DNA from: Actinotalea lenta
Lineage (GTDB): Bacteria > Actinomycetota > Actinomycetes > Actinomycetales > Cellulomonadaceae
Length of the DNA stretch: 64,000 nucleotides
Direction of reading: 5' to 3'
NCBI RefSeq assembly: GCF_030586465.1
Contig: NZ_JAUQYP010000001.1
Location: 971,400-1,035,399 of the forward strand
The stretch's first letter is position 1, and each line of letters begins with the position of its first letter. A program made the translations under genes and the position numbers. Under the pieces are notes generated by a model. The model made no database searches. It saw only the letters and a program-made list of their open reading frames with translations, and was not told the DNA's origin. This document shows positions 39,023 to 61,859 of this stretch, piece after piece.

Positions 39023-40045
39023 TCACACGGCCGCCGGTCGCCGCACCGGACGATGGTGCTCGACCGCAACGACCCGAGCCTTGTGGCCGGAGCCTGCGAC
39101 GTGCGCGACGAGGATCTCGCCGGTCCTCAGGTACGGGTCAGAGCCGGGGAGCACGCCGTGCGTCCATCGGCGAGTGGCCTCCGCGAGGGTGTCCAACACG
39201 GTCGGCAGCACCGGCCGGTGGGTGGCGAGCGCGGCGTCGCGGGGAGTGGCGAGGAGATCCTCGACGACGGCGACCACCTTCTGCGGGTCCTCCGCGTGCG
39301 CTGCCTCGGTCAGCGCATCCACGGTGTCCACCCGCACGCCGGTGCCGTTCTGGTAGGGCTGCACGGTCGCGCGGCAGCGTTCCCACGGGCTGGTGAGCAC
39401 GGAGCGCACGCCGAAGGCCGCGAGCACCGGCACCGTGGTCTCCGCCTGCCGGCGGCCGACGGCCGTGAGCGGCCGGGAGGCCTCGCCCTCGTGCCAGCGG
39501 TTGCGCGGCACGGCCTGGCCGTGCCGGACCACCGCGAGCACGTGGGTCTCCAGCCGCCCCCGCTTCCACAGGTCCTCGAGGGCGTCCAGGGGCCGCCGGT
39601 CCGAGGGCCGGGTGAGCATCTCGCGTGCGGTGGCCGCGCTCACCCACACCACGTCGTCGATCTCGCCCAGGCTGGCCGGCGTCACGTCGGGCCGCGCCGC
39701 GAGGGGACGGTCGTGGTGTGCCCCGGCCTCCCTGGCCGCCCAGTAGCGCACGACCTTCCCGGCGCCGTCGGGGGTCCGGTAACGCATCAAGGGGAGCGGG
39801 ACGCCGAGGACGATGGTGGTGCCCGTCTCCTCCTCGACCTCGCGCACCGCCGCGGCCGCCACGGGCTCGCCCGACTCGAGCTTGCCCTTGGGCCAGGACC
39901 AGTCCTGGTAGCGCGGACGGTGCACGAGGGCCACCTCGAGCCGGTTCCGGGCGTGCCGCCAGACCACTGCGCCGGCGGCATGGACGGTCTGCGGCTTGCC
40001 GTTCGGCACCAGGACGTCCGCTCCCATGGCTCGGCCTGCGCTCAC
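39023..40045 (-). CDS. MutT1-like NUDIX hydrolase fused to a histidine phosphatase
   Basis: 340 residues with two domains. The NUDIX box [22 protein letters not shown] (about 54-75) lies in residues 20-150; a phosphoglycerate mutase-like domain follows with RHG at 174-176 ([13 protein letters not shown]). This is the layout of mycobacterial MutT1, which hydrolyses 8-oxo-dGTP/GTP and diadenosine polyphosphates. In the phosphatase domain the second catalytic histidine should follow the [12 protein letters not shown] segment; it may be the one in [14 protein letters not shown] at 40045 overlaps the ppk stop by four bases; an ATG at 40027 is also possible. Confidence 0.92.
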
Positions 40046-42405
40046 AGTGCGGTGTCGGGGCGTCGGCGTTGCCGGGAGATGAGGTACTCCTGCAGGTCCA
40101 GCAGGGGGGCGCCGTCCGGGTCCCGGTGGTGCCGCTGCCAGCCGTCCGGGCCGAGGTGCCAGCTGGACGTGCCGTCGTCGGTGGACAGGTCCAGCAGCCG
40201 GAGCAGCTCGTCGATGTGCTCGGGGTCGACGATCCGCAGCAGGGCCTCGACCCGGCGGTCGAGGTTGCGGTGCATCAGGTCGGCAGACCCGATGAACACC
40301 TCGGGGTCGCCGTCGTTCGCGAAGGCGAACACGCGTGCGTGCTCCAGGAAGCGGCCCAGGATCGAGCGGACCCGGATGGTCTCGGACAGTCCGGGGACGC
40401 CGGGCTTGACCGCGCAGATCCCGCGCACCACGAGGTCGACGGGGACACCCACCTGGGACGCCCGGTACAGCGCGTCGACGGTGGCCTCGTCGACGATCGA
40501 GTTCACCTTGATCCTGACCCAGGCCTCGCGGCCTTCCAGGTGCGCGTGCCGTTCCCGGTCGATGCGCTCGACGAGACCGGACCGCACCGACCGTGGCGCG
40601 ACCAGCAGCCGGTTGAAGCGCGCCTTGGGCGCGTAGCCCGAGAGCTGGTTGAACAGCCGGGTCAGGTCCTGGGCGACCTCCGGGTCGGCGGTCAGCACGC
40701 CGAGGTCCTCGTAGAGGCGAGCCGTCTTCGGGTGGTAGTTCCCGGTGCCGACGTGGCAGTAGCGCCGCAGGCCGTCGGTCTCCTGACGGACCACCAGCGA
40801 CAGCTTGGAGTGCGTCTTGAGCCCGACGATGCCGTAGACCACGTGCACGCCGGCCTGCTCGAGCTTGCGGGCCCAGGAGATGTTGGCCTGCTCGTCGAAC
40901 CGGGCTTTGATCTCCACCAGCGCCAGGACCTGCTTGCCCGCCTCGGCCGCGTCGATCAGGGAGTCGACCACCGGCGAGTCGCCGGACGTGCGGTACAGCG
41001 TCTGCTTGATCGCGAGGACCTTGGGGTCGGCCGCGGCCTGAGCGAGGAACGCCTGGACCGACGTGGCGAACGAGTCGTACGGGTGGTGTAGCAGGATGTC
41101 ACGGGTCCGGATGGCGGCGAAGATGTCCGTCGGTGTGGCGGACTCCACCTCGGCCAGGTGCCGGTGGGTGCCGCCCACGAACCGCCGGTAGTGCAGGTCC
41201 GGCCGGTCCAGGTCGGCGATCAGGTTGAGACCCGTCAGGTCCAGGGGTGCGGGCAGCGAGTAGACCTCCGACTCGGCGATGCCGAGCTCGCGCACGAGCA
41301 GCCGCAGGACGCGCGGGGCGATGTCCTCGGCGACCTCGAGGCGCACCGGTGGTCCGAACCGTCGTCGCAGGAGCTCCTTCTCCATCGCCTGGAGGATGTT
41401 CTCGGCGTCGTCCTCCTCGACCTCGACGTCCTCGTTGCGGGTCACGCGGAAGGTGTGGTGCTCGCGCACCTCCATCCCCGGGAAGAGGTAGTCCAGGTGG
41501 ACGGCGATGACGTCCTCGAGCGGTACGAAGCTCGTCGGTCCCTTCTCCGGTGCGGCGGCCTGGCTGGACGGGGCGCTGGGCTTGCCGGTCGCGTCGACCG
41601 CGATGAACCGCGGCAGCAGGGGTGGGACCTTGACGCGCGCGAAGTGCTCCTTGCCGGTCGCCGGGTTGACCACCACCACGGCGAGGTTGAGGGAGAGGCC
41701 GGAGATGTACGGGAAGGGGTGAGCGGGGTCGACGGCCAGCGGCGTCAGCACGGGGAAGATCTGGCGCCGGAAGTACTTGCGGAGCCGCTCCTGCTCGTCG
41801 GGACCGAGCTCGTCCCAGTGCACCAGGGTGATGCCCTCCTCGGCCAGTGCGGGCTGGACCTGGTCGAGGAAGACGGCGGCGTGGCGTTCGGTCAGCCGGT
41901 GGGACCGCTCGTCGATCGCCTCCAGCACCTGGCGCGGGGAGAGGCCGGACGCGGCGGTGACGGCCATCCCGGTGGCGATGCGTCGCTTGAGGCCGGCCAC
42001 CCGCACCATGAAGAACTCGTCGAGGTTGGACGCGAAGATCGCCAGGAAGCGGACGCGCTCGAGCAGGGGGAGCTCGGGGTCCTCGGCGAGCTCGAGGACG
42101 CGCTCGTTGAACGCCAGCCAGGAGACCTCCCGGTCGGCGAAGCGGTCCGTCGGCAGCTCGGGCAGGCCCTCCAGCTCACCGTCCGAGCTGACCGGGGTGG
42201 GCTCGGGCGGCAGGACCGGGAGACCGGACTCCAGGAGCTCCTCGGCGGAGGCACGCTCAGCCGCGGCGTCGGCCCAGTCCTCGGCACTCGGCACCCACCG
42301 ACCGGTGGCCGGGTCCCGTCGTCGCCGGGGGGCCGGCCCGGGGCGTGTCGGGGTGCCCTGCTCGTCGGACCGTCGCTGGACGGACGTGCGCGGTCGTGTG
42401 GCCAT
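40042..42405 (-). CDS. ppk1: Polyphosphate kinase PPK1
   Basis: 787 residues. It makes polyphosphate from ATP. The N domain ([38 protein letters not shown]) and head domain are followed by the two phospholipase-D-like C domains; the phosphorylated histidine lies in [15 protein letters not shown]. About 85 N-terminal residues form an acidic and basic disordered extension before the PPK1 core, longer than in E. coli. It is followed by the MutT1-like gene, and pit-DUF47 converges on them, forming a phosphate cluster. Confidence 0.97.
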
Positions 42406-42486: not shown

Positions 42487-43392
42487 TCACTGCGGGGCGA
42501 ACTGGGTGTCCGAGCGATCGACCGTGAACCCCGCGGCCCGGTAGGTCCGCACCGCGGGCGTGTTGTCAGCCTCCGTGAACAGCACCGCCCTCGTACAACC
42601 CCGGTGGCGCAGGTGCTGCACCGCGGCTGCGGTCAGGGCACGTCCCAGACCCCGGCCCTGCGCGGCCGGGGCCACCCCGAGGACGTAGAGCTCGCCCAGG
42701 GGCGGGGTCACCTTGGTCCAGGCGAACCCGAGGACCTCGTGCCGCCGCACCGCGAGAGCCAGGTCGGTGGCGTGGAACCACGGCTCGGCGCGCCGTGCGT
42801 CCAGGTCGGCACGCGTCATTCCGCCCTGCTCGGGATGCCGCGCGAACGCGGCGCCGTTCACGGCGAGCAGCGCGTCCTCGTCCCCCGTGCGGAACGGCCG
42901 CAGCCGTACCCCGGGCGGGAGGCCCGCGGCGGCCCAGCCGGGGCTCGAGTCGGGAGCCTCGGCGCCGGGGTCGAGGTCGACCGTCATGCGCCAGAGCTCG
43001 CGCACCGCGGTCAGCCCCGCGCGGCGGGCGAGTGCGGCCGCCGGCGCCAGGGTCCCGTGGGCCCAGACCCGCACCGGTGCGTCCTGCGCCTGGGCGATGT
43101 CGAGCAGGGCGGCCAGGACCCGACCCCCCAGGCCCGCTCCTCGGGAGCCGGGCGCCACGACGAGCTCCGCCGTCCGGGTCCCGGAGTGTTCCGGGCCCAG
43201 CTGCCCGTACGCGTCCAGGGACCCGTCGGCCACGAGCACGTGGTCGGCACCGTCCGACCCGACGTCCAGCGTGGTCTGCTCGCCGAGCGGCTCGACCCCG
43301 TCGGCGTTCTGCACTGCTTTGGCGAGGTCGTGCACGGCCGCCACGAGCTCGTCCTCGAGGGCGCCGTGCCGGCGGTGGATCGAGGCGTTCAT
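42487..43392 (-). CDS. mshD: Mycothiol synthase, tandem copy 1 (downstream)
   Basis: 301 residues, two GNAT acetyltransferase domains. It acetylates Cys-GlcN-Ins with acetyl-CoA to finish mycothiol. The N-domain acetyl-CoA loop is VVAPGSRGAGLGGRVL; the C-domain, which is catalytic in known MshD, has VLGVAPAAQGRGLGRALT and ends FTVDRSDTQFAPQ. ATG at 43392 fits the family start (MNASIHRRHGALED). A second MshD-like gene lies 58 bases upstream on the same strand. ppk1 follows. Confidence 0.92.
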   Translation of the reverse strand: MNASIHRRHGALEDELVAAVHDLAKAVQNADGVEPLGEQTTLDVGSDGADHVLVADGSLDAYGQLGPEHSGTRTAELVVAPGSRGAGLGGRVLAALLDIAQAQDAPVRVWAHGTLAPAAALARRAGLTAVRELWRMTVDLDPGAEAPDSSPGWAAAGLPPGVRLRPFRTGDEDALLAVNGAAFARHPEQGGMTRADLDARRAEPWFHATDLALAVRRHEVLGFAWTKVTPPLGELYVLGVAPAAQGRGLGRALTAAAVQHLRHRGCTRAVLFTEADNTPAVRTYRAAGFTVDRSDTQFAPQ

Positions 43393-43450
43393 CGGGCCAT
43401 CCCACCACCGGCGCGTGCGCTCCGCAGGGCGCCGCGCGAGCCGGTCGCCC

Positions 43451-44359
43451 TCAGCCGGCGGTGGCGTACTGGGTGTCGGTGCGGTCGACGACGAACCCGA
43501 GGGACTCGTACAGGTGCACCGCGGGCGCGTTGTCGGCGTCGGTGAACAGCTCGGCCCGGTGCGCACCGCGCCGGCGCAGGTGGTCCAGGCCCGCGACCGT
43601 CAGCGCGCGGCCCAGCCCCGTGCCCTGCGCCCGGGGCACCACGCCCACGGTGTAGATCTCCCCGACGGCGCCCACGAGCTTGGTCCAGACGAACCCGACC
43701 AGCGCGTCGTCGCGCTCGGCGAGCAGCAGCCCGGCCGGGTCGAACCAGGGCTCGGCCTCGCGTGCGCGCAGGTCGGCCAGGGTCATCCGGCCCTGCTCCG
43801 GGTGAGCGGCGAACGCGGCGGCGTTCGCCGCGAGCCAGGCGTGCTCGTCGCGGTCGGGCCGGAAGGCGCGCAGGCCGAGCCCCCTGCGGTCGTCCCCGCC
43901 GGTCGGTCCGGACCCCGTGGCGCCCGACGCCCAGGCGTCCAGGTCGAGGGCCATCCGCCACAGCTCGCGCACGGGAGCGAGGCCGGCGTGGCGGGCCAGG
44001 GACGTCGCGCCCGGCAGGGTGCCGTGTGCCCAGAGCAGGGCCTGGGCGTCGCCGGCGAGGTCCATCACCGCGCCCATCAGCGCGGTGCCGACCCCAGTCC
44101 CGCGTGCGGCCGGGGCGACGACGAGCTCGGCGGTCCGGCGCCGCCCGAGCTCGGGCCAGAGCTGGGCGTAGCCGACCGGCGTGCCGTGCTCGTCGTGCGC
44201 GAGGACGTGCCACGCGCGCGGCGCGGTCAGGTCCAGCAGGGTCTGCTCACCGAGCGGGGCGACGCCGTCCGCCCCGGCAGCGGTGTCCGCCAGCCGGCGC
44301 ACCGCGTCCGCCTCGGCGTCGTCCAGCGCTCCGTGCTTGCTGGAGATGTGAACGGTCAC
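43451..44359 (-). CDS. mshD: Mycothiol synthase, tandem copy 2 (upstream)
   Basis: 302 residues, same two-GNAT layout as its neighbour: VVAPAARGTGVGTALM in the N domain, VGVVPRAQGTGLGRALT in the C domain, and the end FVVDRTDTQYATAG. The shared HGALxD opening, DGVxPLGEQT and HPEQGxMTxADL segments show a local duplication. Both copies keep acetyl-CoA loops, so both may be active or one may have taken another acyl donor or acceptor. GTG at 44359 has GAGGGGGTG upstream. Which copy is the housekeeping enzyme cannot be told from sequence alone. Confidence 0.92.
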   Translation of the reverse strand: MTVHISSKHGALDDAEADAVRRLADTAAGADGVAPLGEQTLLDLTAPRAWHVLAHDEHGTPVGYAQLWPELGRRRTAELVVAPAARGTGVGTALMGAVMDLAGDAQALLWAHGTLPGATSLARHAGLAPVRELWRMALDLDAWASGATGSGPTGGDDRRGLGLRAFRPDRDEHAWLAANAAAFAAHPEQGRMTLADLRAREAEPWFDPAGLLLAERDDALVGFVWTKLVGAVGEIYTVGVVPRAQGTGLGRALTVAGLDHLRRRGAHRAELFTDADNAPAVHLYESLGFVVDRTDTQYATAG

Positions 44360-44422
44360 TGCGTCACCCCCTCACGCCGGTGGTCCGGTGCGGGACCGGG
44401 CGCGAGGCGCCACCGGCGGGCC

Positions 44423-46678
44423 TCACGCGAACGCCTCGGCTCGCTTGGTCAGCTCGGCCAGGCCCGGCTCGTCGGGATTCCGGGGCTGGCCGGGGTGGAT
44501 GATCGCGACCTGACAGGCCTCCGCCGCGAGCACCAGCTCGGCGTACGTGCCGGCGTCCGGGTCGGCGATGTACGCCTGCCGGTCGTCGTTGTAGCGGAAC
44601 ATCCGGTCGTTGATCGCGGTGCACTCGTTGCAGGTCGCGCATCGCGCGGTCTCGATCCACGGCAGGTACGGGTCGTGCGCCTGGGGCTCGTCGACCTGGT
44701 CCTCGGCGTTGTCGGCGACCGGCGGGGTGGCCGGCGCTGCCGCGCTCGTGGCCGGCACGGCGGTGCCCGCGGTCACCCCGGCCGCGGCCAGCTCCGCCTC
44801 GAGCTCCTCCCGCATCCGGGCGCGCTCGAGGGCGACGTGGGAGTTGTGGATGCCGGCGAGCTCCTGGAGGCGGTGCCACTGCTCGACGCTGCGCTGGGTG
44901 AGGTGGATGAGGGGCCGGTCGACCAGCACCCGGTGCAGGCGCTCGTCGCGGGAGATCATCAGCAGGTAGGGCAGCTCGCCGGCCCACGCGCCGGGGTTGG
45001 ACGCCATGTGCTCGGCGAACGGCACCTCCTTGCCCTCGGAGCCGTCCTCGGCGGCGAGCGCGAGGTGGGTGACCAGCCGTGCGTCGCAGGCCCAGAAGTC
45101 GGCGGCGGTGAACGGCACGTCCAGGCTGACCCGCTGCACGGAGCCGTCCTGGTAGGTGATCCGCCGCACGGGCCAGTCGAGCTCGGGCTGCGGGTTGCAG
45201 CCCAGGGTGAAGCGGTCCGCCCAGGTCTCGCCCGCGCCGGGGTCGTAGGCGTAGGACGGGAACACCCGCGACTCGATGGCCGCGGCCGCCGCGAGGTAGG
45301 GCGGCAGGTCGTCGAGCCACTCGCCCTCGCCGGAGTACACCACGAACAGCGCGGCGCCCGGCGCGGCCGACCCCGCGACGATCCGGTCGCGGGCGTGGTA
45401 GAGCGCCGAGCTCGCGCACTGCATGACGAACGACTCCCCGGAGGCCAGCGCCGTGCTGGCGAGCATCCGGGCGGACAGGCCGGCCTGTGCCGGCCGGGCC
45501 TGCTGCGTCGCGCCGCGGAGCAGGTCGTTGACCTGCACCAGCGCCTTGATCGGCAGACCGGAGGCGAGCGCTTCGAGCAGCGCGACGCTGTCCTCGGAGG
45601 TCATCGACTCGGCGTCGACGCGGACCAGGTACTCCGGGAACAGCTCGAGGGTGTCGGTGTCGAGGTCGGCGACGCTCCACTTGGCGAACAGCGCGTCGTG
45701 GACCTCCTCGCGGTAGCGGCCGTCGGCCTCCATCTCGGCCATCACCAGCGCCTTGGCGAGCTCGGTCGTCGCGGCGAACCGGTCGCGGTGGGCGGCCAGC
45801 GCCGCCTGCACGTCGGTGTAGACGAAGTCGTACAGCTCGGTGGTGTCGTCGTCCTCGCCGCTCGGCACGAAGCGCTGCGTGGTGAGCACGTCGAGCAGCC
45901 GGCGGATCCGCGCGCGGCGCGAGTCGGACAGGCTGAAGCGCGGCCGGTTGTCGGTGAGGAGTCGGGACAGCGCCTCGGTGTCGAGCTCGGCGCCGACCAC
46001 GGGTCCCAACGAGGCTGCGAGCCGCTCGCCGGACAGTCCCGCCGGCGAGCTGGCCTGCTCGGCGTCGAGGATGTCCTGCAGGTCGTCGCGCAGGTGCGCG
46101 ACCCGCGCGGTGAGGTGCCGCTCGCGCTCCCGCTGCACGAGCCCCCACAGGTGCCCGACGACCTCGCGAGGCGTGTCGTGGTCGCAGGTCACCAGCCGGC
46201 CGTCGACGGTGCGCGCGGTGGTCAGCCGCGCGAGGCTGTCGGCCAGGTCGGGATCCGGTTCGCCGCCGTTGGCCGACGCCGCGATGAGTGCGTCCACCGC
46301 CTCGTCCCACGCTGCGGACAGCCGGACCGATCCGGCGTCCGCGCGCACCCGGATCTCCCGCTCCAGCAGGATCGCGTGGTGGCGAATCCGGCCGGCGTCC
46401 TCGCCGGTCGCGACCCTCAGGTCGTCGATCAGGCCGGACAGCGACCACATGGTCGTGTTCACGTCGTGCCCGTCGGCCAGCACCAGGGGGTAGTCGTAGC
46501 GGAGCTCGGTGAGCCGCCGGTACGGAGCGAAGTGCGCCGAACGCAGGCCCAGGCCCTCGACGTTGCCCAGGTGGGTGTCCATCCGGTGACCGGTGAGGTA
46601 GAACGACGCCCGGTCCTGCTGGTCGTTGCGGTGGCGGCTGCCCGTCGTCATCGGGGTGCTCTGCGCCGTGTCAGTCAT
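44423..46678 (-). CDS. Large protein of unknown fold with C-terminal [4Fe-4S] ferredoxin domain
   Basis: 751 residues. The last 72 form a ferredoxin-like domain with CATCNEC (C680, C683, C686) and EACQVAIIHPG (C722), enough for one [4Fe-4S] cluster; the usual CP after the last cysteine is CQ here. The first 650 residues match no family that I recognise; they look cytoplasmic and rich in helices, with landmarks RASFYLTGHRMDTHLGNVEGL (24-44), SGEGEWLDDLPPYLAAA and FPSYAYDPGAGETWADRF. An Ala/Pro/Thr linker (about 635-665) separates the parts. ATG at 46678 (GGTGAG 4 bases ahead) or GTG at 46687 would overlap korB by 8 or 17 bases. It is the last gene of the operon and probably accepts or scaffolds electrons from the oxidoreductase. 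Confidence 0.82.
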   Translation of the reverse strand: MTDTAQSTPMTTGSRHRNDQQDRASFYLTGHRMDTHLGNVEGLGLRSAHFAPYRRLTELRYDYPLVLADGHDVNTTMWSLSGLIDDLRVATGEDAGRIRHHAILLEREIRVRADAGSVRLSAAWDEAVDALIAASANGGEPDPDLADSLARLTTARTVDGRLVTCDHDTPREVVGHLWGLVQRERERHLTARVAHLRDDLQDILDAEQASSPAGLSGERLAASLGPVVGAELDTEALSRLLTDNRPRFSLSDSRRARIRRLLDVLTTQRFVPSGEDDDTTELYDFVYTDVQAALAAHRDRFAATTELAKALVMAEMEADGRYREEVHDALFAKWSVADLDTDTLELFPEYLVRVDAESMTSEDSVALLEALASGLPIKALVQVNDLLRGATQQARPAQAGLSARMLASTALASGESFVMQCASSALYHARDRIVAGSAAPGAALFVVYSGEGEWLDDLPPYLAAAAAIESRVFPSYAYDPGAGETWADRFTLGCNPQPELDWPVRRITYQDGSVQRVSLDVPFTAADFWACDARLVTHLALAAEDGSEGKEVPFAEHMASNPGAWAGELPYLLMISRDERLHRVLVDRPLIHLTQRSVEQWHRLQELAGIHNSHVALERARMREELEAELAAAGVTAGTAVPATSAAAPATPPVADNAEDQVDEPQAHDPYLPWIETARCATCNECTAINDRMFRYNDDRQAYIADPDAGTYAELVLAAEACQVAIIHPGQPRNPDEPGLAELTKRAEAFA

Positions 46679-47657
46679 CGAGCTCACCGCCCGTCACCGC
46701 GACCTTGTCGAACTCGGCGTCGAGCAGCCGGCGTACCGAGGCCGAGGAGTGGGTGGCCTCGGAGCGGATGATCTCGTCGTACCGGGGGACGGTGGGGTCG
46801 TGGTAGAGGATCCCGACCGGGAGCGGGTCGCTCGACGACGCGATCTCACGTGCCCGGTGGATGTCCGACGGGTCGTGCTCGAGGTGGTTCGGGAACAGCG
46901 AGGCCAGCGACGAGCTGATCGACAGCGAGCTCGGGTGGTGCAGCAGCTGCACGCGCGACGGGTCGTGCAACCACGGGTCGAAGTTGTCGGGCATCCACTC
47001 CGGGCAGCGCTGCACGATCCGGATGAACGCCAGCCCGTCGTGGTGGAACGCGGCCTGGAGGATCTCGTAGAGCATCTCGGGGATCCAGTCGGCGGCCTGC
47101 GCGACGAACGAGACGTTCTGCACGCCCAGGGTCACGGTCAGCGGGTTGAGCCCCTCCAGGTAGGACCCGCGGGGCGTGGTGTTGGACCGGGTGCCCCGCG
47201 GCGAGGTCGGCGAGGCCTGCTTCTTCGTCAGGCCGTAGATCTGGTTGTCGTGCACCATCACGACCATCCGCATGTTGTAGCGGATGGCGTGGATCCAGTG
47301 CGCGGCGCCGATGCTGAACGAGTCGCCGTCCCCGGTGTTGACGAAGACGTTGAGGTCGGGCCGAGCGAGCCGGATGCCCTCGGCCACCGGCAGCGCGCGC
47401 CCGTGGATGCCGTGGAAACCGTAGGTGTTCATGTAGTGCGGGAAGCGGCTCGAGCAGCCGATGCCGGACACGAACACGGTCTTCTCCGGGCGCAGCCCCT
47501 CGTCGCGGAGCAGCCGTTGGGCAGCGGTGAGCACGGCGTTGTCGCCGCACCCGGCGCACCACCGCGGCACGCCCTTCTGGAAGCCCTCGATCTCGAGCCG
47601 CTCGTCGTGCAGGCGCAGCAGGCACTCCGCGGCGCTCCGGTGGGTCAGGTCGATCAT
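46671..47657 (-). CDS. korB: 2-oxoacid:ferredoxin oxidoreductase beta subunit
   Basis: 328 residues. The thiamine diphosphate site is GDGDSFSIGAAHWIHAIRYN, the [4Fe-4S]-binding cysteines include WCAGCGDN and GIGCSSRFPHY plus C in VQRCPEW. This is the KorB-type beta subunit that decarboxylates a 2-oxoacid (2-oxoglutarate or pyruvate) with ferredoxin. ATG at 47657 overlaps the alpha-subunit stop by four bases. The substrate is not decided by motifs I can see; the short two-subunit layout favours 2-oxoglutarate-type enzymes. Confidence 0.94.
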   Translation of the reverse strand: MIDLTHRSAAECLLRLHDERLEIEGFQKGVPRWCAGCGDNAVLTAAQRLLRDEGLRPEKTVFVSGIGCSSRFPHYMNTYGFHGIHGRALPVAEGIRLARPDLNVFVNTGDGDSFSIGAAHWIHAIRYNMRMVVMVHDNQIYGLTKKQASPTSPRGTRSNTTPRGSYLEGLNPLTVTLGVQNVSFVAQAADWIPEMLYEILQAAFHHDGLAFIRIVQRCPEWMPDNFDPWLHDPSRVQLLHHPSSLSISSSLASLFPNHLEHDPSDIHRAREIASSSDPLPVGILYHDPTVPRYDEIIRSEATHSSASVRRLLDAEFDKVAVTGGELDD

Positions 47658-49549
47658 CGCCCGTCCAGCTTCCTGAGAATGGCCCGCTGCACGCGGCCCG
47701 GCTTGATGGGTTGGCCGCCGACCTCGCTCCAGGTGTCGACGTCGACGAGGTAGCGCGAGCGCAGCAGCATCGCCAGGGCGGAGTAGCGCCGGTTGGTCTC
47801 GTCGATGATCGGGTCGTCCAGGCGGTCGCTCCAGTTCGCCTCGACGGTCATCACCTGGTCGAAGCCCGCCATGATCTCCTTGAGTCCCGGCGGCAACGGG
47901 TTGAGGAAGCGCAGGTGCAGCGAGGACACCTCCCGCCCTTCGGCCCGCAACCGGTCCACGGCCTCCTCGATGGCTCCGCGGGTGCCGCCCCAGCCGATGA
48001 CCAGGAGGTCGCCGGACTCGTCACCGTGCACGCGAGGGGGCCGGAGGGTCTTCTGCAGCGCCGCGAGCTTGAGGCTGCGCGCGTGCAGGCCCTGCTCGTT
48101 GGCGTCCGGGTCGTAGGCGACCGAGCCGGACGTGTCGTGCGCGAGGCCGGTCAAGGTGTACATGCCGCCCGGCTGGCCGGGCGTGAAGCGCCGGGACAGT
48201 CCCGTGGTCTCGTCCCACGCGTAGGGCTGCAGGCCGTCGGGCACGTGGCTCTGGTCCACCGGGGGTGCGAGCCAGGCCGGGTCGAACTCCGGGCGCGGGT
48301 AGGGCTGCTGCGCGGTGGCCAGGCTCGCGTCGGACAGCACGACCACGACGGTGTTGAAGGTCTCGGCGATCCGTCGGGCGGTGATGATCGAGTAGAAGCA
48401 GTCCTCGATCGAGCTCGCCGCGATCACCACCTTCGGGGCGTCGCCGTGGCTGCCGAAGATCGAGGTGAGCAGGTCGCCCTGCTCGACCTTGGTCGGCTGC
48501 CCGGTGCTCGGGCCGCCACGTTGGACGTTGACCACGACGAGCGGGATCTCGGCCATCACGGCCAGACCGATGGCCTCCTGCTTGAGCGAGTAGCCCGGGC
48601 CCGACGTGATCGTCACGGCGCACTTGCCGGCGTAGGACGCCCCGATCGCGAACGTGGCCGCCGCGATCTCGTCCTCCGCCTGGTGCACCACGCCGCCGAC
48701 CTTCGGGAAGATCTCGCTGAGGTAGTGCGAGGCGGAGGTCGCCGGCGTGATGGGGTACATCGAGCAGATCTCCATGCCGGAGGCCACCACACCGAGCGCG
48801 AGCGCCGTGTTGCCGTTGGTGACGACCTGGCGCTGGTCCGTCGGGGCCGCCGGGACGTGGAACGCCAGGTCCAGGTTGGCCAGGGCCCACTCGTACCCGG
48901 CGGTGAGCAACGTGACGTTCGTGTCGATGAGAGCCTGGGTCTTCTTGCGGAACGTCAGGGCGACCTGCTCGCGGGCCAGGCCGAGGTCGAACTGGTAGAT
49001 CGCGCACAGCATGCCGAGGGCGTACATGTTCTTGCCGCGCCGCGCGTCGGAGACCAGCGTGCGGCACTCCCGCTCCATCGGGACCTCGATGATGCGGTAG
49101 CCCGCGGCGACCAGCAGGTCGTAGGTCTCGGCGTAGGACGCGGCGATCCGGGGGTCGCGGTGCTCGCGCCACATGTCCTCGAGCAGGATCGTGCAGCCCG
49201 GCTTGAGCTCGCGGGCGTGCACCCGGCCGAGCAGCACCTGCTCGTTGAACGCGACGACCAGGTCCGCCTCGTCGCCGCCGTTGGTGATGGGTCCCGAGCC
49301 CAGCCGGACCCGGTTCCCGCTGGCGCCCGCGACGCTGCGGGCCGGCGGCTGGATCTCGGCCGGGATGATCTCGACCGTCCAGACCCCGTTGCCGGTGCGG
49401 GCTGCGATCGCGCCGAACGACTGACCGCAGCGCTGGGCACCCTCGCCCGAGTCGCTGATGATCTCCACGACGTGCTCGGTGAGCGTGACGACCTGGCGTT
49501 CGCCGACCTCGGCGCTGAGTTCTGACCGTGTCGACTGGACCGTGCTCAT
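47654..49549 (-). CDS. korA: 2-oxoacid:ferredoxin oxidoreductase alpha subunit (gamma-alpha fusion)
   Basis: 631 residues. The N-terminal 220 form the gamma domain (FGAIAARTGNG, DLVVAFNEQVLLGRV); the rest is the alpha domain (GNTALALGVVASGMEICSMYPITPATSASHYL), ending with the transketolase C-terminal-like part (DLLVIGWGGTRGAIEEAVD). It provides CoA and pyrimidine-domain functions to KorB. ATG at 49549 overlaps the flavoprotein stop (ATGA). Such oxygen-sensitive enzymes are typical of anaerobes, although mycobacteria use a KorAB in air. Confidence 0.94.
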   Translation of the reverse strand: MSTVQSTRSELSAEVGERQVVTLTEHVVEIISDSGEGAQRCGQSFGAIAARTGNGVWTVEIIPAEIQPPARSVAGASGNRVRLGSGPITNGGDEADLVVAFNEQVLLGRVHARELKPGCTILLEDMWREHRDPRIAASYAETYDLLVAAGYRIIEVPMERECRTLVSDARRGKNMYALGMLCAIYQFDLGLAREQVALTFRKKTQALIDTNVTLLTAGYEWALANLDLAFHVPAAPTDQRQVVTNGNTALALGVVASGMEICSMYPITPATSASHYLSEIFPKVGGVVHQAEDEIAAATFAIGASYAGKCAVTITSGPGYSLKQEAIGLAVMAEIPLVVVNVQRGGPSTGQPTKVEQGDLLTSIFGSHGDAPKVVIAASSIEDCFYSIITARRIAETFNTVVVVLSDASLATAQQPYPRPEFDPAWLAPPVDQSHVPDGLQPYAWDETTGLSRRFTPGQPGGMYTLTGLAHDTSGSVAYDPDANEQGLHARSLKLAALQKTLRPPRVHGDESGDLLVIGWGGTRGAIEEAVDRLRAEGREVSSLHLRFLNPLPPGLKEIMAGFDQVMTVEANWSDRLDDPIIDETNRRYSALAMLLRSRYLVDVDTWSEVGGQPIKPGRVQRAILRKLDGR

Positions 49550-51078
49550 CGGGCCGTCACCGCCGTTCTGTGGGTGGAGGGAGTCTCGGCGACCCGGAGT
49601 CGGACGAACGAGTGCTCGTGCGGTGCGATCCCGAACACCGGCTCGCCGAGCGCGTCGTAGGGCAGGGACTCGTCGCGGACGCCGAGGTAGCGGAGGATCC
49701 CGGCCGCTGCCCTGCGCCCGGCGCCCATCGCCTCGATCACGGTCGCGGCGCCGGTGACGATGTCGCCGCCGGCGAAGACGCCGGCCATGGAGGTCGCCAG
49801 GTCCTCGTCGACCCGCAGGTAGCCGCGCTTGTCGAGGCTCAGCCTCGAGGTCTGGCCGATGATCGGGTTCGCGTTGGTGCCGATCGCGAACACCACCTGG
49901 TCGCAGCGCATCACGAACTCGCTGCCCGGCACCGGCACGGGCCGCCGGCGACCGGACGCGTCCGGCTCACCGAGCTCCATGCGCTGGCAGCGCAGGCCGC
50001 CCACGTTGCCCTGGCCGTCGTCGAGGACCTCGACGGGGTTGGTCAGCCAGTGGAACTCCACGCCTTCTTGCTCGGCGTGGTGCAGCTCCTCGGCACGCGC
50101 GGGGGCCTCGGCGGCCGAGCGACGGTACAGGCACTGGACGGTCTCGGCGCCCAGCCGCAGGCAGACCCGCATGGCGTCCATCGCGGTGTTGCCGGCGCCG
50201 ACCACGGCGACGTGCGTGCCCAGCGGGATCGGGGTGTCGTAGACCGGGAAGTCCCGGGCCTGCATGAGGTTCGCCCGGGTGAGCAGCTCGTTGGCGGACA
50301 GCACGCCGCCCAGGGAGTCCCCTGGGATGCCGAGCATGGTCGGGTAGCCCGCGCCGGTGCCGATGAACACCGCGTCGAAGCCCATCTCCTCGATCATCTG
50401 CTCGGGGGTGAACAGCCGGCCGACGACCGTGTTGCACTCGAACCGCACGCCGAGCCGCTCGAGGTTGGCGACCTCGGCGTCGATGACCTCGCTCGGCAGC
50501 CGGAAGTCGGGGATGCCGTAGCGCAGCACGCCGCCGGGCAGGTGCAGGGCCTCGTAGACGGTGACCTCGCACCCGGCCTTGGCGAGGTCGGCGGCGCACG
50601 CCATGCCGGCCGGGCCCGAGCCGATCACGCCGACCCGGTGCGGCGTCGGGGGTATGAACGGCCGTGAGGCCCAGTCGTTCGCGATCGCGAGGTCGCCGAC
50701 GAACCGCTCCAGGCGGCCGATCGCGACGGGCTCGAGCGAGTCGCCGACGGTGCACACGGCCTCGCACTGGGACTCCTGCGGGCACACCCGGCCGCACACC
50801 GCCGGCAGCAGGTTGGTGCGTGCGATGGTCTCGTAGGCGCCCTGGTAGTCCCGGTCGGAGACCTTCCGGATGAAGCCGGGGATGTCGACGGAGACCGGGC
50901 AGCCCCGCATGCAGGGCGTGTCGGCGCAGAACAGGCAGCGCTGCGCCTCGCGCGCGGCCTCGACCTCGTCGTACCCGAGGCTGACCTCCTCGAAGCCGCC
51001 GATGCGCTCGGCGGCGGGCTGCTCGCGCACCGGGGTGCGCTCGGCGGGGATGGTGCGGATGGTGCGCTTCGCGGCCAC
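49546..51078 (-). CDS. NfnB/GltD-like FAD and iron-sulfur oxidoreductase
   Basis: 510 residues. An N-terminal double cluster domain has C48, C51, C56, C60 and C95, C99, C105, C109; then an FAD Rossmann motif GVIGSGPAG (150-158) and a second nucleotide fold VAVVGAGNTAMDA for NAD(P). This is the layout of glutamate synthase small subunit, of NfnB and of SudA. With an NfnA-like partner encoded directly upstream and no gltB, an Nfn-type electron transfer role is more likely than glutamate synthesis. GTG at 51078 follows the partner's stop after one base; the stop overlaps korA. Confidence 0.92.
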   Translation of the reverse strand: MAAKRTIRTIPAERTPVREQPAAERIGGFEEVSLGYDEVEAAREAQRCLFCADTPCMRGCPVSVDIPGFIRKVSDRDYQGAYETIARTNLLPAVCGRVCPQESQCEAVCTVGDSLEPVAIGRLERFVGDLAIANDWASRPFIPPTPHRVGVIGSGPAGMACAADLAKAGCEVTVYEALHLPGGVLRYGIPDFRLPSEVIDAEVANLERLGVRFECNTVVGRLFTPEQMIEEMGFDAVFIGTGAGYPTMLGIPGDSLGGVLSANELLTRANLMQARDFPVYDTPIPLGTHVAVVGAGNTAMDAMRVCLRLGAETVQCLYRRSAAEAPARAEELHHAEQEGVEFHWLTNPVEVLDDGQGNVGGLRCQRMELGEPDASGRRRPVPVPGSEFVMRCDQVVFAIGTNANPIIGQTSRLSLDKRGYLRVDEDLATSMAGVFAGGDIVTGAATVIEAMGAGRRAAAGILRYLGVRDESLPYDALGEPVFGIAPHEHSFVRLRVAETPSTHRTAVTAR

Positions 51079-51079
51079 G

Positions 51080-52033
51080 TCACGCTCCTGTCGGGGTGGG
51101 AAGCTCGGAGGTGTCGGCCGCGGCCACCTCGGCGCGCCGGCAGGTGTGCTCCCAGTGCGCCAGCGCCTGGGCCTCCTCGCCGCGGTACCGCGTCAGCCGC
51201 GAGCGCAGGTCGGCGAAGTCCACCTTGTGGCCGTCGAAGTCGGGTCCGTCCACGCAGGCGAACCTGACCCCGTCACCGACCCGGACCCGGCAACCACCGC
51301 ACATCCCGGTGCCGTCCACCATGATCGGGTTCAGGCTGACGACGGTGTGCACGCCCGTGGGGCGGGTGGCCTCCGCGCAGGCCTGCATCATCACGGGTGG
51401 GCCGATCGCGACGACCTCACCGACGTCGGGGTAGCGCTCCATCGCCAGCTCCAGGCCGTCGGTGACCAGACCGTGGATCCCGGCGCTGCCGTCGTCGGTG
51501 CACAGGATCAGCTCGTCGCACACCTCGCGGAACTTGTCCTCCCAGAACACGAGCTCGGCGGAGCGGAAGCCGAGCACGCCGATCACCGTGGCGCCGCGCT
51601 CCTTGTGCGCGCGGGCCTGGGGGTAGACGGGTGCGACCCCCAGGCCGCCGCCCACGCACACCACCGTGCGGGCCGTGCCCAGGGGGCTCGGCTGGCCCAG
51701 CGGGCCGGCGACGCCGTGCAGGCTCGTGCCAACATGGCAGGTCTGCTGCATCTCGCGCGTGGTCTTACCGACGGCCTGGACGACCAGCGTGACGGTGCCG
51801 AGCTCCCGGTCGAAGTCGGCGATCGTCAGCGGGATGCGCTCGCCCTCGGGATGCGACATCACGATGACGAACTGGCCGGCCCGCGCCGCACGTGCCATCA
51901 GCGGATGGTGCACCTCGAGGATGAAGGTCGCGTCGGAGATGTCGTGTCTGGCGACGATCGGGAAGCCGGTCACCCCCGCCCGAGGCGCAGAAGTGGTGGA
52001 GGCCGACCTGAGGTCGTCCGAGGAGCTCTGCAT
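51080..52033 (-). CDS. NfnA/SudB-like FAD and [2Fe-2S] oxidoreductase
   Basis: 317 residues, a ferredoxin-NADP reductase-type protein. FAD-binding barrel with IPLTIADFD, NAD(P) domain with VVCVGGGLGVAPVYPQ, and a C-terminal [2Fe-2S] site GTGMCGGCRVRVGDGVRFAC (cysteines in CGGC plus a later C, VDGPDF after). This equals the dihydroorotate dehydrogenase electron-transfer subunit fold used by NfnA and SudB. It starts the five-gene operon. A 50-residue C-terminal tail after the cluster is Ala/Glu-rich. It probably forms a heterodimer with the protein at 49546. Confidence 0.92.
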   Translation of the reverse strand: MQSSSDDLRSASTTSAPRAGVTGFPIVARHDISDATFILEVHHPLMARAARAGQFVIVMSHPEGERIPLTIADFDRELGTVTLVVQAVGKTTREMQQTCHVGTSLHGVAGPLGQPSPLGTARTVVCVGGGLGVAPVYPQARAHKERGATVIGVLGFRSAELVFWEDKFREVCDELILCTDDGSAGIHGLVTDGLELAMERYPDVGEVVAIGPPVMMQACAEATRPTGVHTVVSLNPIMVDGTGMCGGCRVRVGDGVRFACVDGPDFDGHKVDFADLRSRLTRYRGEEAQALAHWEHTCRRAEVAAADTSELPTPTGA

Positions 52034-52186
52034 CGTGCACCCGTCCAGTCAACGCTGACCGACCCTCGAGTTGCGTGGTGCACGCGCTGCTGGGCGCACC
52101 TCGACGTGCCCCCGGGGGTATGTAGACCTCCCCACTCTGCCCAGGCGATCCGGCGACCATCTGGGACGTCTGGGCCATTCAGGCAC

Positions 52187-52200
52187 TGAGACGTATCTCA
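52187..52200. promoter_or_regulatory. Palindromic operator candidate upstream of the Nfn-Kor operon
   Basis: TGAGA-CGTA-TCTCA has perfect 5-base arms. It lies about 155 bases before the first Nfn gene on the minus strand. The regulator is unknown. Confidence 0.45.
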
Positions 52201-52491
52201 CATTGCGTCGATTTGACCTCGCGATGACCGGTACTGGAGCGGGCGCCGCCCGACGTGGTCCCTTCTTGGCCCGGCGTCGTCGCGAGCCTTACCTGGCCGT
52301 CTCGCCCCGCGGCCGGCGTCGGCGACGCGCATCACGGCCGCTCTGAGGGATAGGACGGCACAGCGGTCGATCGATAAATAACCCTCACAAGGCCCGGTGG
52401 AAATCCTCGGTCATCATCGATATGCGATTGACCTGCCAAAACGGATGAGCCGTGAGGCCCGGAGTGGACTCCAGCCTTGGCCGTAGCGGCG

Positions 52492-52535
52492 TTATCGCTT
52501 CGTGACTTGTTTATCGATTCATCTCTCGCTACTGT
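52492..52535 (+). promoter_or_regulatory. Promoter of the ABC island with repeated operator-like sites
   Basis: TTGTTT (52507-52512) and TACTGT (52530-52535) are 17 bases apart. TTATCGCTTC (52492-52501) and TTATCGATTC (52511-52520) form a direct repeat with one change, flanking or overlapping the -35. An inverted copy, ATCGATAAA, lies at 52370-52378, about 130 bases upstream. Central CG in ATCGAT fits a LacI operator; the LacI gene at 59470 is the candidate regulator. Confidence 0.6.
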
Positions 52536-52585
52536 CGCGGCAAGCGAGCGAGGGCGCTCGCGTACCCGACCAGGAAGGTGATCCC

Positions 52586-53659
52586 ATGAGGTCACGGAAG
52601 TTCGGCGCGACGCTGGTGTCCGCCGTAGCGCTGCTTCTTGTCGGCGCGTGCTCGGGCACTACCGAGGCGCAGGGGGGCGACGCCTCGGGCGCGGACAGCG
52701 CGACCAGCAGTGGCAGCGACGGCAAGGCGGTCGTGGCGTTCTCGCAGGAGGGGCTGGAGAACGACTGGCGCCTGGAGAACACGGCATCGATTCGCGAGAC
52801 GCTGGAGAACGCTGGCTACACGGTGCTCTACCAGCAGGCGGACGAGGACCAGGCCCGGCAGGTCGAGCAGGTCCAGAACCTGTTGCAGCAGAAGCCCGAC
52901 ATCCTCGTCGTCGAGCCGGCCGAGCAGGAGGCGGCAACGCCGATCGCCGCGCTCGCCGAGGACGCAGGCGTGCCACTGATCGTGGCCGACCGTGCTCTCG
53001 GAGTGGGTCCCGACTCCGCCACCCAGTACAAGGTCCTCATCACCCAGAACTGGGAGCAGATGGGCACGAAGCTGGGTGAGGCAGCGGTTCAGCTCCTGAC
53101 CAAGGTCAATGGTTCGCCCAAGGGCAGCATCGTCGAGCTCGTCGGTGTTCTGGGCTCGGCTCCGCAGGTGGCGATGGACAAGGGCTTCGCCGACGTCCTT
53201 GCGCAGTACCCGGACATCAAGATCCTCGACGCGCAGGACGGCGAGAACAAGCGGGCACCGGGCCGCCAGATCATGGAGGACTACCTCACCCGGTATCCGG
53301 CAGGTCAGATCGACATGGTGTGGGCGCAGAACGACGAGATGGGGATCGGGGCTCTTGCCGCCATCCAGGACGCGGGCCGTGACGAGCTCGTGGGTCGGAT
53401 CATCTCCAAGGACGGTCAGGTTGAGGCCATCCAGCAGGTTGCCGAGGGCAACTTCGCGACGGTCTGCACGAACACGCCGTACTTCGGGCCGATCATTCTT
53501 CCCTACGTCGAGAAGATCCTCGCCGGCGAGAGCCTGGAGACGGCAACGCCGGACAAGCCCTTCACGTGCTTCGAGTCGATCACGGACGCCGGCCAGAAGG
53601 AGGCCAAGGCGCAGTACGACGAGCTGACGGCCGCAAGTGCCAAGTTCGCCAACCGCTGA
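52586..53659 (+). CDS. Sugar-type ABC transporter substrate-binding lipoprotein
   Basis: 357 residues. Lipobox LVGAC with the cysteine at residue 22, then a Ser/Ala/Gly linker to about residue 47. The mature protein is a RbsB-like type I binding protein (VAFSQEGLENDWRLENTASI, then QADEDQARQVEQVQNLLQQKPDIL and WAQNDEMGIGALAAI). GGAAGGTGAT lies 6 bases before the ATG. The substrate is unknown; it could be a sugar, polyol or furanose, given the two dehydrogenases in the same island. It starts the transporter operon. Confidence 0.92.
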   Translation: MRSRKFGATLVSAVALLLVGACSGTTEAQGGDASGADSATSSGSDGKAVVAFSQEGLENDWRLENTASIRETLENAGYTVLYQQADEDQARQVEQVQNLLQQKPDILVVEPAEQEAATPIAALAEDAGVPLIVADRALGVGPDSATQYKVLITQNWEQMGTKLGEAAVQLLTKVNGSPKGSIVELVGVLGSAPQVAMDKGFADVLAQYPDIKILDAQDGENKRAPGRQIMEDYLTRYPAGQIDMVWAQNDEMGIGALAAIQDAGRDELVGRIISKDGQVEAIQQVAEGNFATVCTNTPYFGPIILPYVEKILAGESLETATPDKPFTCFESITDAGQKEAKAQYDELTAASAKFANR

Positions 53660-53693
53660 TCGTCCACCAACAATCCGCAACGGCTGAACGTTG

Positions 53694-53744
53694 GCCGACG
53701 GGTAGTGGCCGGTGCGCTCGCCGCGCCACTACCCGCCGGTCGGC
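53694..53744 (+). repeat. Intercistronic stem-loop after the binding-protein gene
   Basis: CGGGTAGTGGC (53699-53709) and GCCACTACCCG (53725-53735) are perfect 11-base arms around a 15-base loop; GCCGA (53694-53698) and TCGGC (53740-53744) extend the stem beyond a small bulge. It sits 34 bases after the stop, the same place as the hairpin in the chvE operon. Confidence 0.72.
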
Positions 53745-53761
53745 GCGGGAGGCAATACCTC

Positions 53762-55315
53762 GTGTCTGACGACGACAACACGGCGCGCGCGCCGGGCGCC
53801 CGGAGAGTGCTGGAGGCACATGGCCTCGTCAAGCGCTACGCAGGCGTCACCGCCCTCGCAGGCGTCGACTTCGACCTGCACCCGGGCGAGGTCCACTGCC
53901 TGGTCGGCGAGAACGGGGCCGGGAAGTCGACCCTCATCAAGATCCTGACCGGTGCCGTCACCCCGGATGCAGGCTCCATCGCCATCGACGGCGAGGATGT
54001 GACCTCGGCCAGCATCCGCGAACGCCGCGAACGCGGCATCTCGGTGATCTACCAGGACCTGAACCTTGTCCCTCAGCTCACCGTCGCTGAGAACATCTTC
54101 CTCGGTTCAGAGCCCCGTACCCGACTGGGCATGCTCGATCGGGCAGCGATGCGCAGGGCGACGGAGCAGCTGATCGCCGACCTGGGTGTGCCCTTCGCGG
54201 CATCAGCCCGCGTGGGGGAGCTGGGTATCTCCCTGCAGCAGCTGACAGCCACGGCGCGGGCGCTCGCCCTGGGCGGCAAGGTCCTGATCATGGATGAGCC
54301 CTCTGCCGTCTTGGGTGGCAAGGAGCTCGATGTGCTCTTCGGGGTGATTCGGCGCCTGACGGCGCAGGGAATCGGCATCGTGTACATCTCCCACCGACTC
54401 GAGGAGATCTTCGAGATCGGTGATCGGGTGACCGTCCTGCGTGATGGCAACTACGTCGGGACGTCGGCGGTCGCGGACATCGATCAGGCCGAGCTCGTCC
54501 GACGCATGGTCGGCAGGGACGTCGTCCGTTACGAGAACCTCGACATCGACACGCCCAAGGGAGCCGAGGTCCTGCGCGTGGACTCCTTGACACGCCGCGG
54601 GGTCCTGCGTGACGTCTCCCTCACAGTGCGGGCCGGCGAGGTGGTGGGGATCGCCGGCCTCGTGGGCGCCGGCCGGACCGAGCTCGCCCGGGCGATCATG
54701 GGGCTGGATGCCGTCGACAGCGGCACCGTCTACCTGGACGGCAAGCCTCGCCGCGTGACCAGCGCCGCCAAGGCGGTTCGTCTGGGCCTTGCGCTCGTCC
54801 CGGAGGACCGGCGGGCCGAAGGAATCGTCCCGATGCTCAGCGTCCGCGACAATGCCGCTCTGTCGATGGTTCGCACGATGTCCAAGCTCGGGGTTGTGCA
54901 GTTCCGCCGCATGTACCGGCGGGTTGGCGAGCTCGCGCGGGACCTGGCGGTCAAGGTCCCGGATCTTCGCGATCCGGTCAGCGGCCTGTCCGGGGGCAAC
55001 CAACAGAAGGTCGTCCTGGCCAAGTGCCTCGCGAGCGACTGCCGGGTGCTGATCATGGATGAGCCGACCGTGGGCATCGACGTGGGCGCGAAGCGCGAGA
55101 TCTACTCGCTCATCGGCACCTTGAAGCAGCGCGGTCTCGGCGTGGTCGTGATCTCTTCCGAGCTCCCGGAGATCCTCTCCATCAGTGACCGGATCCTGGT
55201 CATGTCCGAGGGGCGCATTCAGGGCGAGGTCGATCCGCGCACGACAACACAAGAGGAGATCCTCCACCTGGCGATCCCGCCGATGGACGCTCTGGCTCAG
55301 GGCGGTGCGGCATGA
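53762..55315 (+). CDS. Sugar-type ABC transporter ATP-binding protein (RbsA type)
   Basis: 517 residues, two nucleotide-binding domains. The first has GENGAGKST and Walker B LIMDEPSAVLGG, where PTAALS is more common; the second has [18 protein letters not shown] and LIMDEPTVGID. GTG at 53762 is chosen for GGGAGG 9 bases upstream; the open frame before it overlaps the hairpin. Coupled to the first permease (ATGA). Codons ending in T or A are clearly more frequent than in the genes to the left. Confidence 0.94.
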   Translation: MSDDDNTARAPGARRVLEAHGLVKRYAGVTALAGVDFDLHPGEVHCLVGENGAGKSTLIKILTGAVTPDAGSIAIDGEDVTSASIRERRERGISVIYQDLNLVPQLTVAENIFLGSEPRTRLGMLDRAAMRRATEQLIADLGVPFAASARVGELGISLQQLTATARALALGGKVLIMDEPSAVLGGKELDVLFGVIRRLTAQGIGIVYISHRLEEIFEIGDRVTVLRDGNYVGTSAVADIDQAELVRRMVGRDVVRYENLDIDTPKGAEVLRVDSLTRRGVLRDVSLTVRAGEVVGIAGLVGAGRTELARAIMGLDAVDSGTVYLDGKPRRVTSAAKAVRLGLALVPEDRRAEGIVPMLSVRDNAALSMVRTMSKLGVVQFRRMYRRVGELARDLAVKVPDLRDPVSGLSGGNQQKVVLAKCLASDCRVLIMDEPTVGIDVGAKREIYSLIGTLKQRGLGVVVISSELPEILSISDRILVMSEGRIQGEVDPRTTTQEEILHLAIPPMDALAQGGAA

Positions 55316-56283
55316 GCGCCCTCGCGCCGGCGCGACCGGATGCGCGGGCGCTGCGGTGGCTCCCCCGCCTCAACAAGCGGTTCTTGATCGACTACATGGC
55401 GTGGGTGCTGCTGCTCGCCCTCGCTCTCATCGGTGTGGCCACCAATGGTTCGCTGTTCGCGTCCGGGTCGAACCTGAACAACATCGTTGAGCAGTCGGTG
55501 ATCATCGGGTTGCTGGCGATCGGACAGTTCGTCGTGATCCTCACTGGTGGCATCGACCTCTCCGTCGGGTCGGCGATGGCCCTCACGGCGATGGTCGTGG
55601 GCGTGTCGATGCCCCTGGGCACGCCGGGCGCGGTCCTGATGGCGGTCCTCACGGGCACGCTCGTCGGGCTCGCCTCCGGGCTCACCGTGGTCTACGGGGG
55701 ACTCCCCCCGTTCATCGTGACCTTCGCGATGATGGCTGTGGCTCGGGGCCTAGCCCTCACGATCACCTCAGGGAAATCCGTCCAGGTGCTCGACAACTCA
55801 CTCCTCGGTCTGGGCTTCGGGTGGCAGAAGGTGGCTGTGTGGGCCTTGGCGATCGCCGTGGTGTGGTTCATCCTCACGCGTACCCGCACCGGGGTACGCG
55901 TGTACGCGGTCGGCGGCAACGTCGAGGCCGCGCGAGTCTCAGGCATCAGCACGCCCCGTGTGATCGTGCTGGTCTACGTGATCTCCGGCCTGTGTGCGGC
56001 CACGGCGGGGATTCTCTCGTTCGCTCGCAACGGCGGGGTCGCGGTGCCGACCTCGGGCCAGGGCTACGAGATGGAGACCATTGCCGCGGTCGTCCTGGGG
56101 GGCGTCAACCTGCTCGGCGGTGAGGGTCGATTCGTCGGCGCCATCGCGGGAACCGTGTTCGTCGTGATGCTCCGGAACATCCTCGACCTCTCCAATGCCG
56201 ACGCTTTCTGGTCCTTCTGCGTGATCGGCGTGGTGCTGTGGGGTGCGGTCATGCTCCGCGGGGCGCTGGAAAGGATGCGCTGA
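55312..56283 (+). CDS. ABC transporter permease 1 (RbsC type)
   Basis: 323 residues, eight to ten membrane segments. Family signature [18 protein letters not shown] near residue 80 and [12 protein letters not shown] near residue 203. ATGA overlap with the ATPase gene and a one-base overlap with the next permease. RbsC-type systems often use one permease as a homodimer; here two different ones are encoded, so the pore is probably a heterodimer. Confidence 0.94.
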
Positions 56284-57281: not shown

Positions 57282-57318
57282 TTCAGTTGTTCTGCAGGTC
57301 GATCTTCAGGGAGAGTGC

Positions 57319-57741: not shown

Positions 57742-57821
57742 GTTCCCCGCGCATCGCTCCGGATGTCGCTCGAGCGGCGCCGTGCATGTGCGGATCGGAT
57801 CAACCCAAAGGAGAGGTAGAA

Positions 57822-58574: not shown

Positions 58575-58622
58575 CGGCCCGGGGTAGCACCAGAGGCGTG
58601 GGGGATCGGGAAGGGAAGGGCG

Positions 58623-59360: not shown

Positions 59361-59469
59361 GTTCGCTACGTCGTCGGGCGGCGGCGCCAAGCGATCACCG
59401 GTCGCTGCGCCGCCGCTCGCGCGGTTCCGGGAAAGCCCGGCCGGAGGGCCGTGTCCTAGGGAGGGTCGG

Positions 59470-61758: not shown

Positions 61759-61859
61759 CCGTACCCCTCTCGGTCCCGCTCATCATCACCGCGCACCAGG
61801 GCGGGCACCACCGCACGCGCCCCGGCGCGCCGGAGGGCGCGCGCGGGCATACTGCGCCT

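Follow-up and report, generated by a model that had tools for sequence, protein, structure and literature searches.

The window analysed here, a stretch of 64,000 nucleotides from Actinotalea lenta (its genome is designated G000, and G013, G016 and similar labels designate the relatives compared), carries two genes for mycothiol synthase (MshD) next to each other, and the question is how the second one came to stand there and whether the two enzymes differ. The pair had been read in the original prediction as a tandem duplication of two complete two-domain proteins, of which the second might use another acyl donor or another amine. The two genes and the spacer between them are as follows.

42487 to 43392, minus strand: mshD copy A (resident), ATG start, 301 aa, TIGR03448 match, directly upstream of ppk.
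43451 to 44359, minus strand: mshD copy B (extra), GTG start, 302 aa, TIGR03448 match, low 4-fold-site divergence to G013.
43393 to 43450, no strand: A/B spacer, 58 bases in the window.

Both open reading frames are open and complete and encode two-domain proteins, and the predicted pair of entire MshDs at a distance of 58 bases was borne out by near full-length matches to TIGR03448 (mycothiol_MshD) with 263.8 and 275.9 bits for A and B, respectively (cut-off 163.1). A longer reading frame for copy A with its start at 43566 was rejected, since this start falls within B and the family model agrees with the ATG at 43392. An alignment of 302 columns gives 53% identity between the two proteins (E 8e-85), and the closest solved relative of each is the MshD of M. 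tuberculosis. In the AlphaFold models (mean pLDDT 93.8 for A and 93.4 for B) two GNAT domains are predicted in the MshD arrangement; the best PDB match of both models was 1ozp (TM-score by query 0.86 and 0.87, respectively), and the TM-scores by query against PDB 2c27 were 0.75 for the A model and 0.85 for the B model. For a check of the mycothiol pathway, mshC alone was searched and was found in G000 (561.7 bits, cut-off 485.1). In G013, a DUF222 gene (L190:8231-9649) lies between the two mshD copies, and only the 58-base spacer is present in the window.

Catalytic and binding residues were compared in an alignment of A and B with 40 other rows (31 single-copy proteins of the genus or family and 9 outgroups). 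The general base E234 and the general acid Y294 of the C-terminal domain of MshD, as given in PMC4964394, were present in A, B and all 40 comparison rows, the 9 outgroups included. The acetyl-CoA loops claimed for both GNAT halves were confirmed in A and B by the glycines 90, 92, 248 and 250 (M. tuberculosis numbering), and neither copy lacks a key catalytic residue, every one checked being kept in both. E36, E179, K224 and Y282 are taken by us to be the desacetylmycothiol contacts of MshD; the first three are kept in A and B. At the fourth, F replaces Y in the window pair, in the G013 pair and in the single copy of G016, as well as in 2 of the 40 other rows. Y282F probably predates the A/B pair, because the single-copy G016 has F too. 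Of the 98 columns in which at least 90% of the 31 single-copy relatives agree, window A departs at 17 and window B at 10, against 1-11 in the single copies (by leave-one-out), 10 in G016, 12 in G013 A and 10 and 11 in the B copies; window A thus exceeds any of the 31 single-copy MshDs. Between G000 and G013, dN/dS was 0.37 for A, above the other seven of the eight genes compared, and 0.26 for B.

The pair is real and rare, and its enzymes look ordinary. Two mshD copies at E <= 1e-20 were found in 2 of 19 genus genomes, the window's own and G013, and one copy in 16; G003 had none at this threshold and showed only fragments, and in G001, G004, G005 and G015 the mshD match ends at a contig end, so that these four and G003 could hold a second copy. 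At the family level, a match at E <= 1e-38 was obtained in 195 of 221 genomes and two copies in 2 of the 195 (again G000 and G013, the window included). In the order sample, 264 of 396 genomes had a match at 1e-35 and only G000 had two, G013 being outside the draw; in the class sample, 365 of 394 had a match at 1e-40 and two of these (G000, window included, and G920) had two copies. The genus, family, order and class samples overlap and their counts are not additive. G920, for which 4% contamination is listed, is the only other class-sample genome with two strict MshD matches. In the family, order and class samples searched it is correct that most actinobacteria have one mshD, and the pair is not a genus-wide redundancy. 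A second MshD (as a duplication, a paralogue or two copies) is not described in the portions available of the open-licence literature searched, including PMC6514093, PMC11004387 and PMC5358740.

The history of copy A can be read from its position, for which the following features of the window were used.

40042 to 42405, minus strand: polyphosphate kinase gene ppk, usual mshD neighbour (NF003922, 1232.9 bits, cut-off 981; synteny).
39023 to 40045, minus strand: Nudix and histidine phosphatase gene (MutT1-like; Pfam NUDIX and His_Phos_1; synteny), usual neighbour.
63568 to 63999, minus strand: part of an acetyl-CoA synthetase-like gene (acs), named by sequence reading.
43398 to 43407, minus strand: start-proximal motif TGGTGGGATG of copy A, the only exact match in the window, read as a putative extended -10 of a leaderless promoter.
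44366 to 44374, minus strand: damaged motif before copy B, 7/9, with G in place of both the T and the A of the putative -10.

In all eight other genus genomes read (G006, G007, G008, G010, G011, G013, G016 and G017), mshD stands directly before ppk and the nudix gene, and it is copy A that occupies this slot in the window. In G016, an acetyl-CoA synthetase-like gene lies directly upstream of the single mshD, and the window's acs part (63571-63999) is 92% identical over 143 residues to G016:C17:42560-42988; a matching stretch was also found in G013, and the same acs gene end was seen by eye before mshD in G014. From this we infer acs-mshD-ppk as the old gene order; in G000 and G013 a cassette, copy B and other genes now lie between acs and copy A. 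For the part at about 52100-60500, which separates the cassette from the genes at 60.6 kb, no close counterpart was seen in the 72 kb read of G013, the only match there (43%, at 53804-55270) being to a gene elsewhere in the G013 stretch. The gene at 61716-63560 (plus strand) has a phosphatidylglycerol lysyltransferase C-terminal domain, is common to G013 and was not found in the G016 stretches read.

The motif before copy A belongs to the family at large. In 52 of 62 single-copy loci a perfect TGRTGGGAT stands 5-7 (mostly 6) bases before the start codon; the 62 loci were taken from 12 genus and 50 family genomes, the family loci being top-scoring matches and no random draw; the score was 9/9 for window A and both G013 copies, and 7/9 for window B. 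Among more distant named loci, of which 53 out of 78 were examined, none of the 53 has the 10-base form TGRTGGGATG before mshD. In the window this form matches exactly once, and twice when up to one mismatch is allowed, against 5.9 expected in the latter case. A related site, TGCAACGAT, lies 6 or 7 bases before the ppk start in G000, G013, G016 and G008. On our reading the mshD and ppk sites are putative leaderless promoters whose -10 is of the extended type, with G at its second base in place of the usual A. The mshD motif could also be a Shine-Dalgarno sequence; TANNNT sites, counted over 159 gene-like ORFs of genus regions, peak 6 bases before the start codon (9 against 0-4 at other spacings), and this equal spacing before other ORFs fits a promoter better, orthologues of one another being included among the ORFs.

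The rate of divergence was compared with that of single-copy MshDs, by using a linear fit to single-copy relatives (417 pairs whose ppk identity exceeds 0.7). Between G000 and G013, protein identity was 0.638 for A, 0.884 for B and 0.901 for ppk, and at this last value the fit gives about 0.60 (residual SD 0.051). A lies close to the fit and B far outside it; therefore A is normal in overall rate and B is the outlier. A fast decay or specialisation of A, at first suggested by identities of 64% for the A pair and 89% for the B pair, was rejected as the main reading on this ground, single-copy MshDs diverging about as fast at equal ppk distance. Because of its slot before ppk, its single-copy divergence rate and its family-wide motif, copy A is the resident and probably vertically inherited mshD.

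Copy B, by its synonymous divergence, goes with the genes upstream of it, which form an oxidoreductase cassette.

44423 to 46687, minus strand: 754-aa cassette protein; only a weak match to a 4Fe-4S ferredoxin family at its C-terminus (Pfam Fer4_13, 21.5 bits, cut-off 24.5 not reached).
46671 to 47657, minus strand: 2-oxoacid:ferredoxin oxidoreductase beta subunit (KORb; TPP_enzyme_C; TIGR02177, 236 bits, below the cut-off of 261.9).
47654 to 49549, minus strand: 2-oxoacid:acceptor oxidoreductase alpha subunit (KORa; TIGR03710, 513.1 bits, cut-off 482.75).
49546 to 51078, minus strand: GltA-type NADPH oxidoreductase subunit, Nfn-like by sequence reading (TIGR01316, 571.2 bits, cut-off 471.75).
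51080 to 52033, minus strand: sulfide/dihydroorotate dehydrogenase-like FAD/NAD-binding subunit (NF004862, 364.7 bits, cut-off 220).

Differences at 4-fold sites between G000 and G013 were 44/188 for B, 123/417 for the 754-aa gene, 46/173 for KORb, 78/350 for KORa, 68/299 for the 49546 gene and 26/115 for the 51080 gene, as compared with 72/139 for A, 203/437 for ppk, 100/202 for the nudix gene and 82/194 for PiT (A vs B, Fisher p 2e-7). By ppk, G000 is equally far from G013 (0.465) and G016 (0.462); the corresponding 4-fold divergences were 0.356 and 0.375 for the acs part, 0.518 and 0.551 for A, 0.223 and 0.384 for KORa, and 0.234 and 0.558 for B, so that in the cassette and in B, G000 stands much nearer to G013 than to G016. 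Copy B shares its history with the neighbouring cassette and not with copy A, because both show a shallow synonymous divergence between G000 and G013 and A does not. Low divergence alone is no proof of transfer, because dS varies along the window (three genes within 11.6-17.5 kb have 0.257, 0.346 and 0.326, a fourth has 0.61) and 4-fold divergence is low in the lysyltransferase-like gene at 61716-63560 too (125/393).

The cassette itself is rare. The 754-aa protein matched nothing in Pfam or NCBIfam at 1e-5, nor in the PDB at 0.01. It was found in 3 of 220 family genomes (G000, G013 and G016; E <= 1e-60); the 248 genomes of the order draw gave two (G000, and G247 at 59%; E <= 1e-40) and the 246 of the class draw gave G000 alone, G013 and G016 being outside these two draws. 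Partial relatives of it (29-38% identity) occur in two plasmid records. In G016 the cassette is on another contig than the mshD, and no mshD was found near it in the 18 kb read. As G016 carries the cassette elsewhere and without mshD, mshD is not a fixed part of it. A plasmid origin of B was also considered and rejected: a search of 72,556 plasmid records gave one weak match (45.8%), and the record that contains it is 11.85 Mb long.

Taken together, we favour, with moderate confidence, the reading from these sequence comparisons that A is the resident gene, that B came or was re-exchanged with the cassette, and that the two are ordinary and largely redundant MshDs. Both would acetylate the cysteinyl amine of Cys-GlcN-Ins with acetyl-CoA, the acetylation being carried out in the C-terminal GNAT domain and the N-terminal domain helping to hold the substrate. 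Copy A would be vertically inherited and transcribed from its own conserved putative leaderless promoter. Copy B would be an extra mshD of a close relative's type, located at the 3' end of the rare cassette, which entered the locus, or was re-exchanged between species, together with the cassette. Counted against this reading are the 17 departures of A and its dN/dS of 0.37, by which A is not wholly ordinary, and the protein tree, with which an old duplication and a loss of B in G016 would also agree.

In the protein trees, A, B and G016 formed one clade (support 100/99 in both trees), and the copy A pair was supported by 99/82 and 92/64 in the first and second tree, respectively. A clade of the two window copies was rejected (AU p 1.6e-58), as was a clade of the two G013 copies (AU p 1.4e-5); independent duplications in G000 and G013 are thereby rejected and the pair therefore arose once. 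The four A and B rows as a clade cost 0.44 log units and were not rejected (p 0.477), and B with G016 as a clade fits as well (p 0.498). The proposed phylogeny with single-copy MshDs thus gave a single origin of the pair within one clade with G016 and was compatible with more than one branching order of A, B and G016. The identities were 0.543 (window) and 0.589 for A-B, 0.643 and 0.681 for A-G016, and 0.611 and 0.609 for B-G016. A recent tandem duplicate was rejected, A-B (0.543) being below A-G016 (0.643) and this below B of the window with B of G013 (0.884), with the window-copy clade rejected as above. In-situ tandem duplication as originally proposed was not supported, B following the history of the oxidoreductase cassette and not that of A, and "tandem duplication" is probably the wrong history.

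A serious if doubtful alternative is that mshD was duplicated locally in the common ancestor of G000, G013 and G016, that B was lost in G016, and that the segment of cassette and B was later exchanged between G000 and G013 by homologous recombination. The well-supported single clade, in which A, B and G016 are about equally distant from each other, is consistent with it, and so are Y282F, R172A, V306T and a change at D241, which are common to A, B, both G013 copies and G016. However, it requires both the loss in G016 and the later exchange, and the G016 assembly has one mshD match only (E <= 1e-20), with none around its cassette.

Under the favoured reading, in which B travelled with the cassette, the likeliest difference between A and B is one of expression and not of substrate. 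Window B has lost consensus positions of its putative promoter and is probably transcribed, if at all, by read-through from the cassette. It is possible, and in our estimate unlikely, that B is decaying in G000 after the loss of its promoter: its motif is 7/9 in the window and 9/9 in G013, but the ORF is intact and dN/dS between G000 and G013 is 0.26, a value which mostly reflects the time before any loss.

A changed donor or acceptor specificity of B (or A), for example towards another acyl-CoA, is considered very unlikely. The 17 and 10 departures of A and B, against 1-11 in single copies, and the dN/dS of A would be in line with it, and enzymes of the cassette's family make acyl-CoA. Against this, the checked catalytic and binding residues are kept, single-copy G016 also has 10 departures, and A overall diverges at the single-copy rate. 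The proposal of another donor or amine for the second copy is thus not borne out, these residues being the same in A, B and single-copy G016. Succinyl- and formyl-thiols are reportedly formed in mycobacterial mutants without MshD; since these mutants are said to lack MshD, the argument drawn from them says nothing on a second MshD, and no mention of 'formyl-Cys' or 'succinyl-Cys' was found in the papers checked for these terms. Most improbable is a working link in which the acyl-CoA of the oxidoreductase (acetyl-CoA, or succinyl-CoA from 2-oxoglutarate) would be used by a co-transcribed B on Cys-GlcN-Ins while A makes the housekeeping mycothiol; if true, the product would be a variant of mycothiol, or the supply of mycothiol would be coupled to ferredoxin metabolism.

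If B did arrive with the cassette, a second copy of a redox-thiol gene can settle beside the resident one by riding with neighbouring genes, and the neighbours of adjacent paralogues should be checked before a tandem duplication is called. The motif common to most family loci read makes mshD expression directly testable.

As compared with known systems, the genes upstream of B resemble 2-oxoacid:ferredoxin oxidoreductase sets with Nfn/GltA-like subunits by their alpha (above cut-off), beta (below cut-off) and GltA-like matches, and differ by the mshD at the 3' end in G000 and G013, which is not so in G016. Copy A shares place, start-proximal motif and rate with the single-copy family mshD before ppk; the locus differs from it in having two copies, of which B has other upstream neighbours and a damaged motif. 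From M. tuberculosis MshD (Rv0819; PDB 1OZP and 2C27), both proteins differ by an identity of only about 40% in the Foldseek alignments and by Y282F, which is common to A, B and single-copy G016, and the A model fits 2C27 less well than the B model does; the tandem GNAT fold from end to end, the general base and acid, most of the checked substrate-pocket residues and a profile score above the cut-off are common to it and to A and B.
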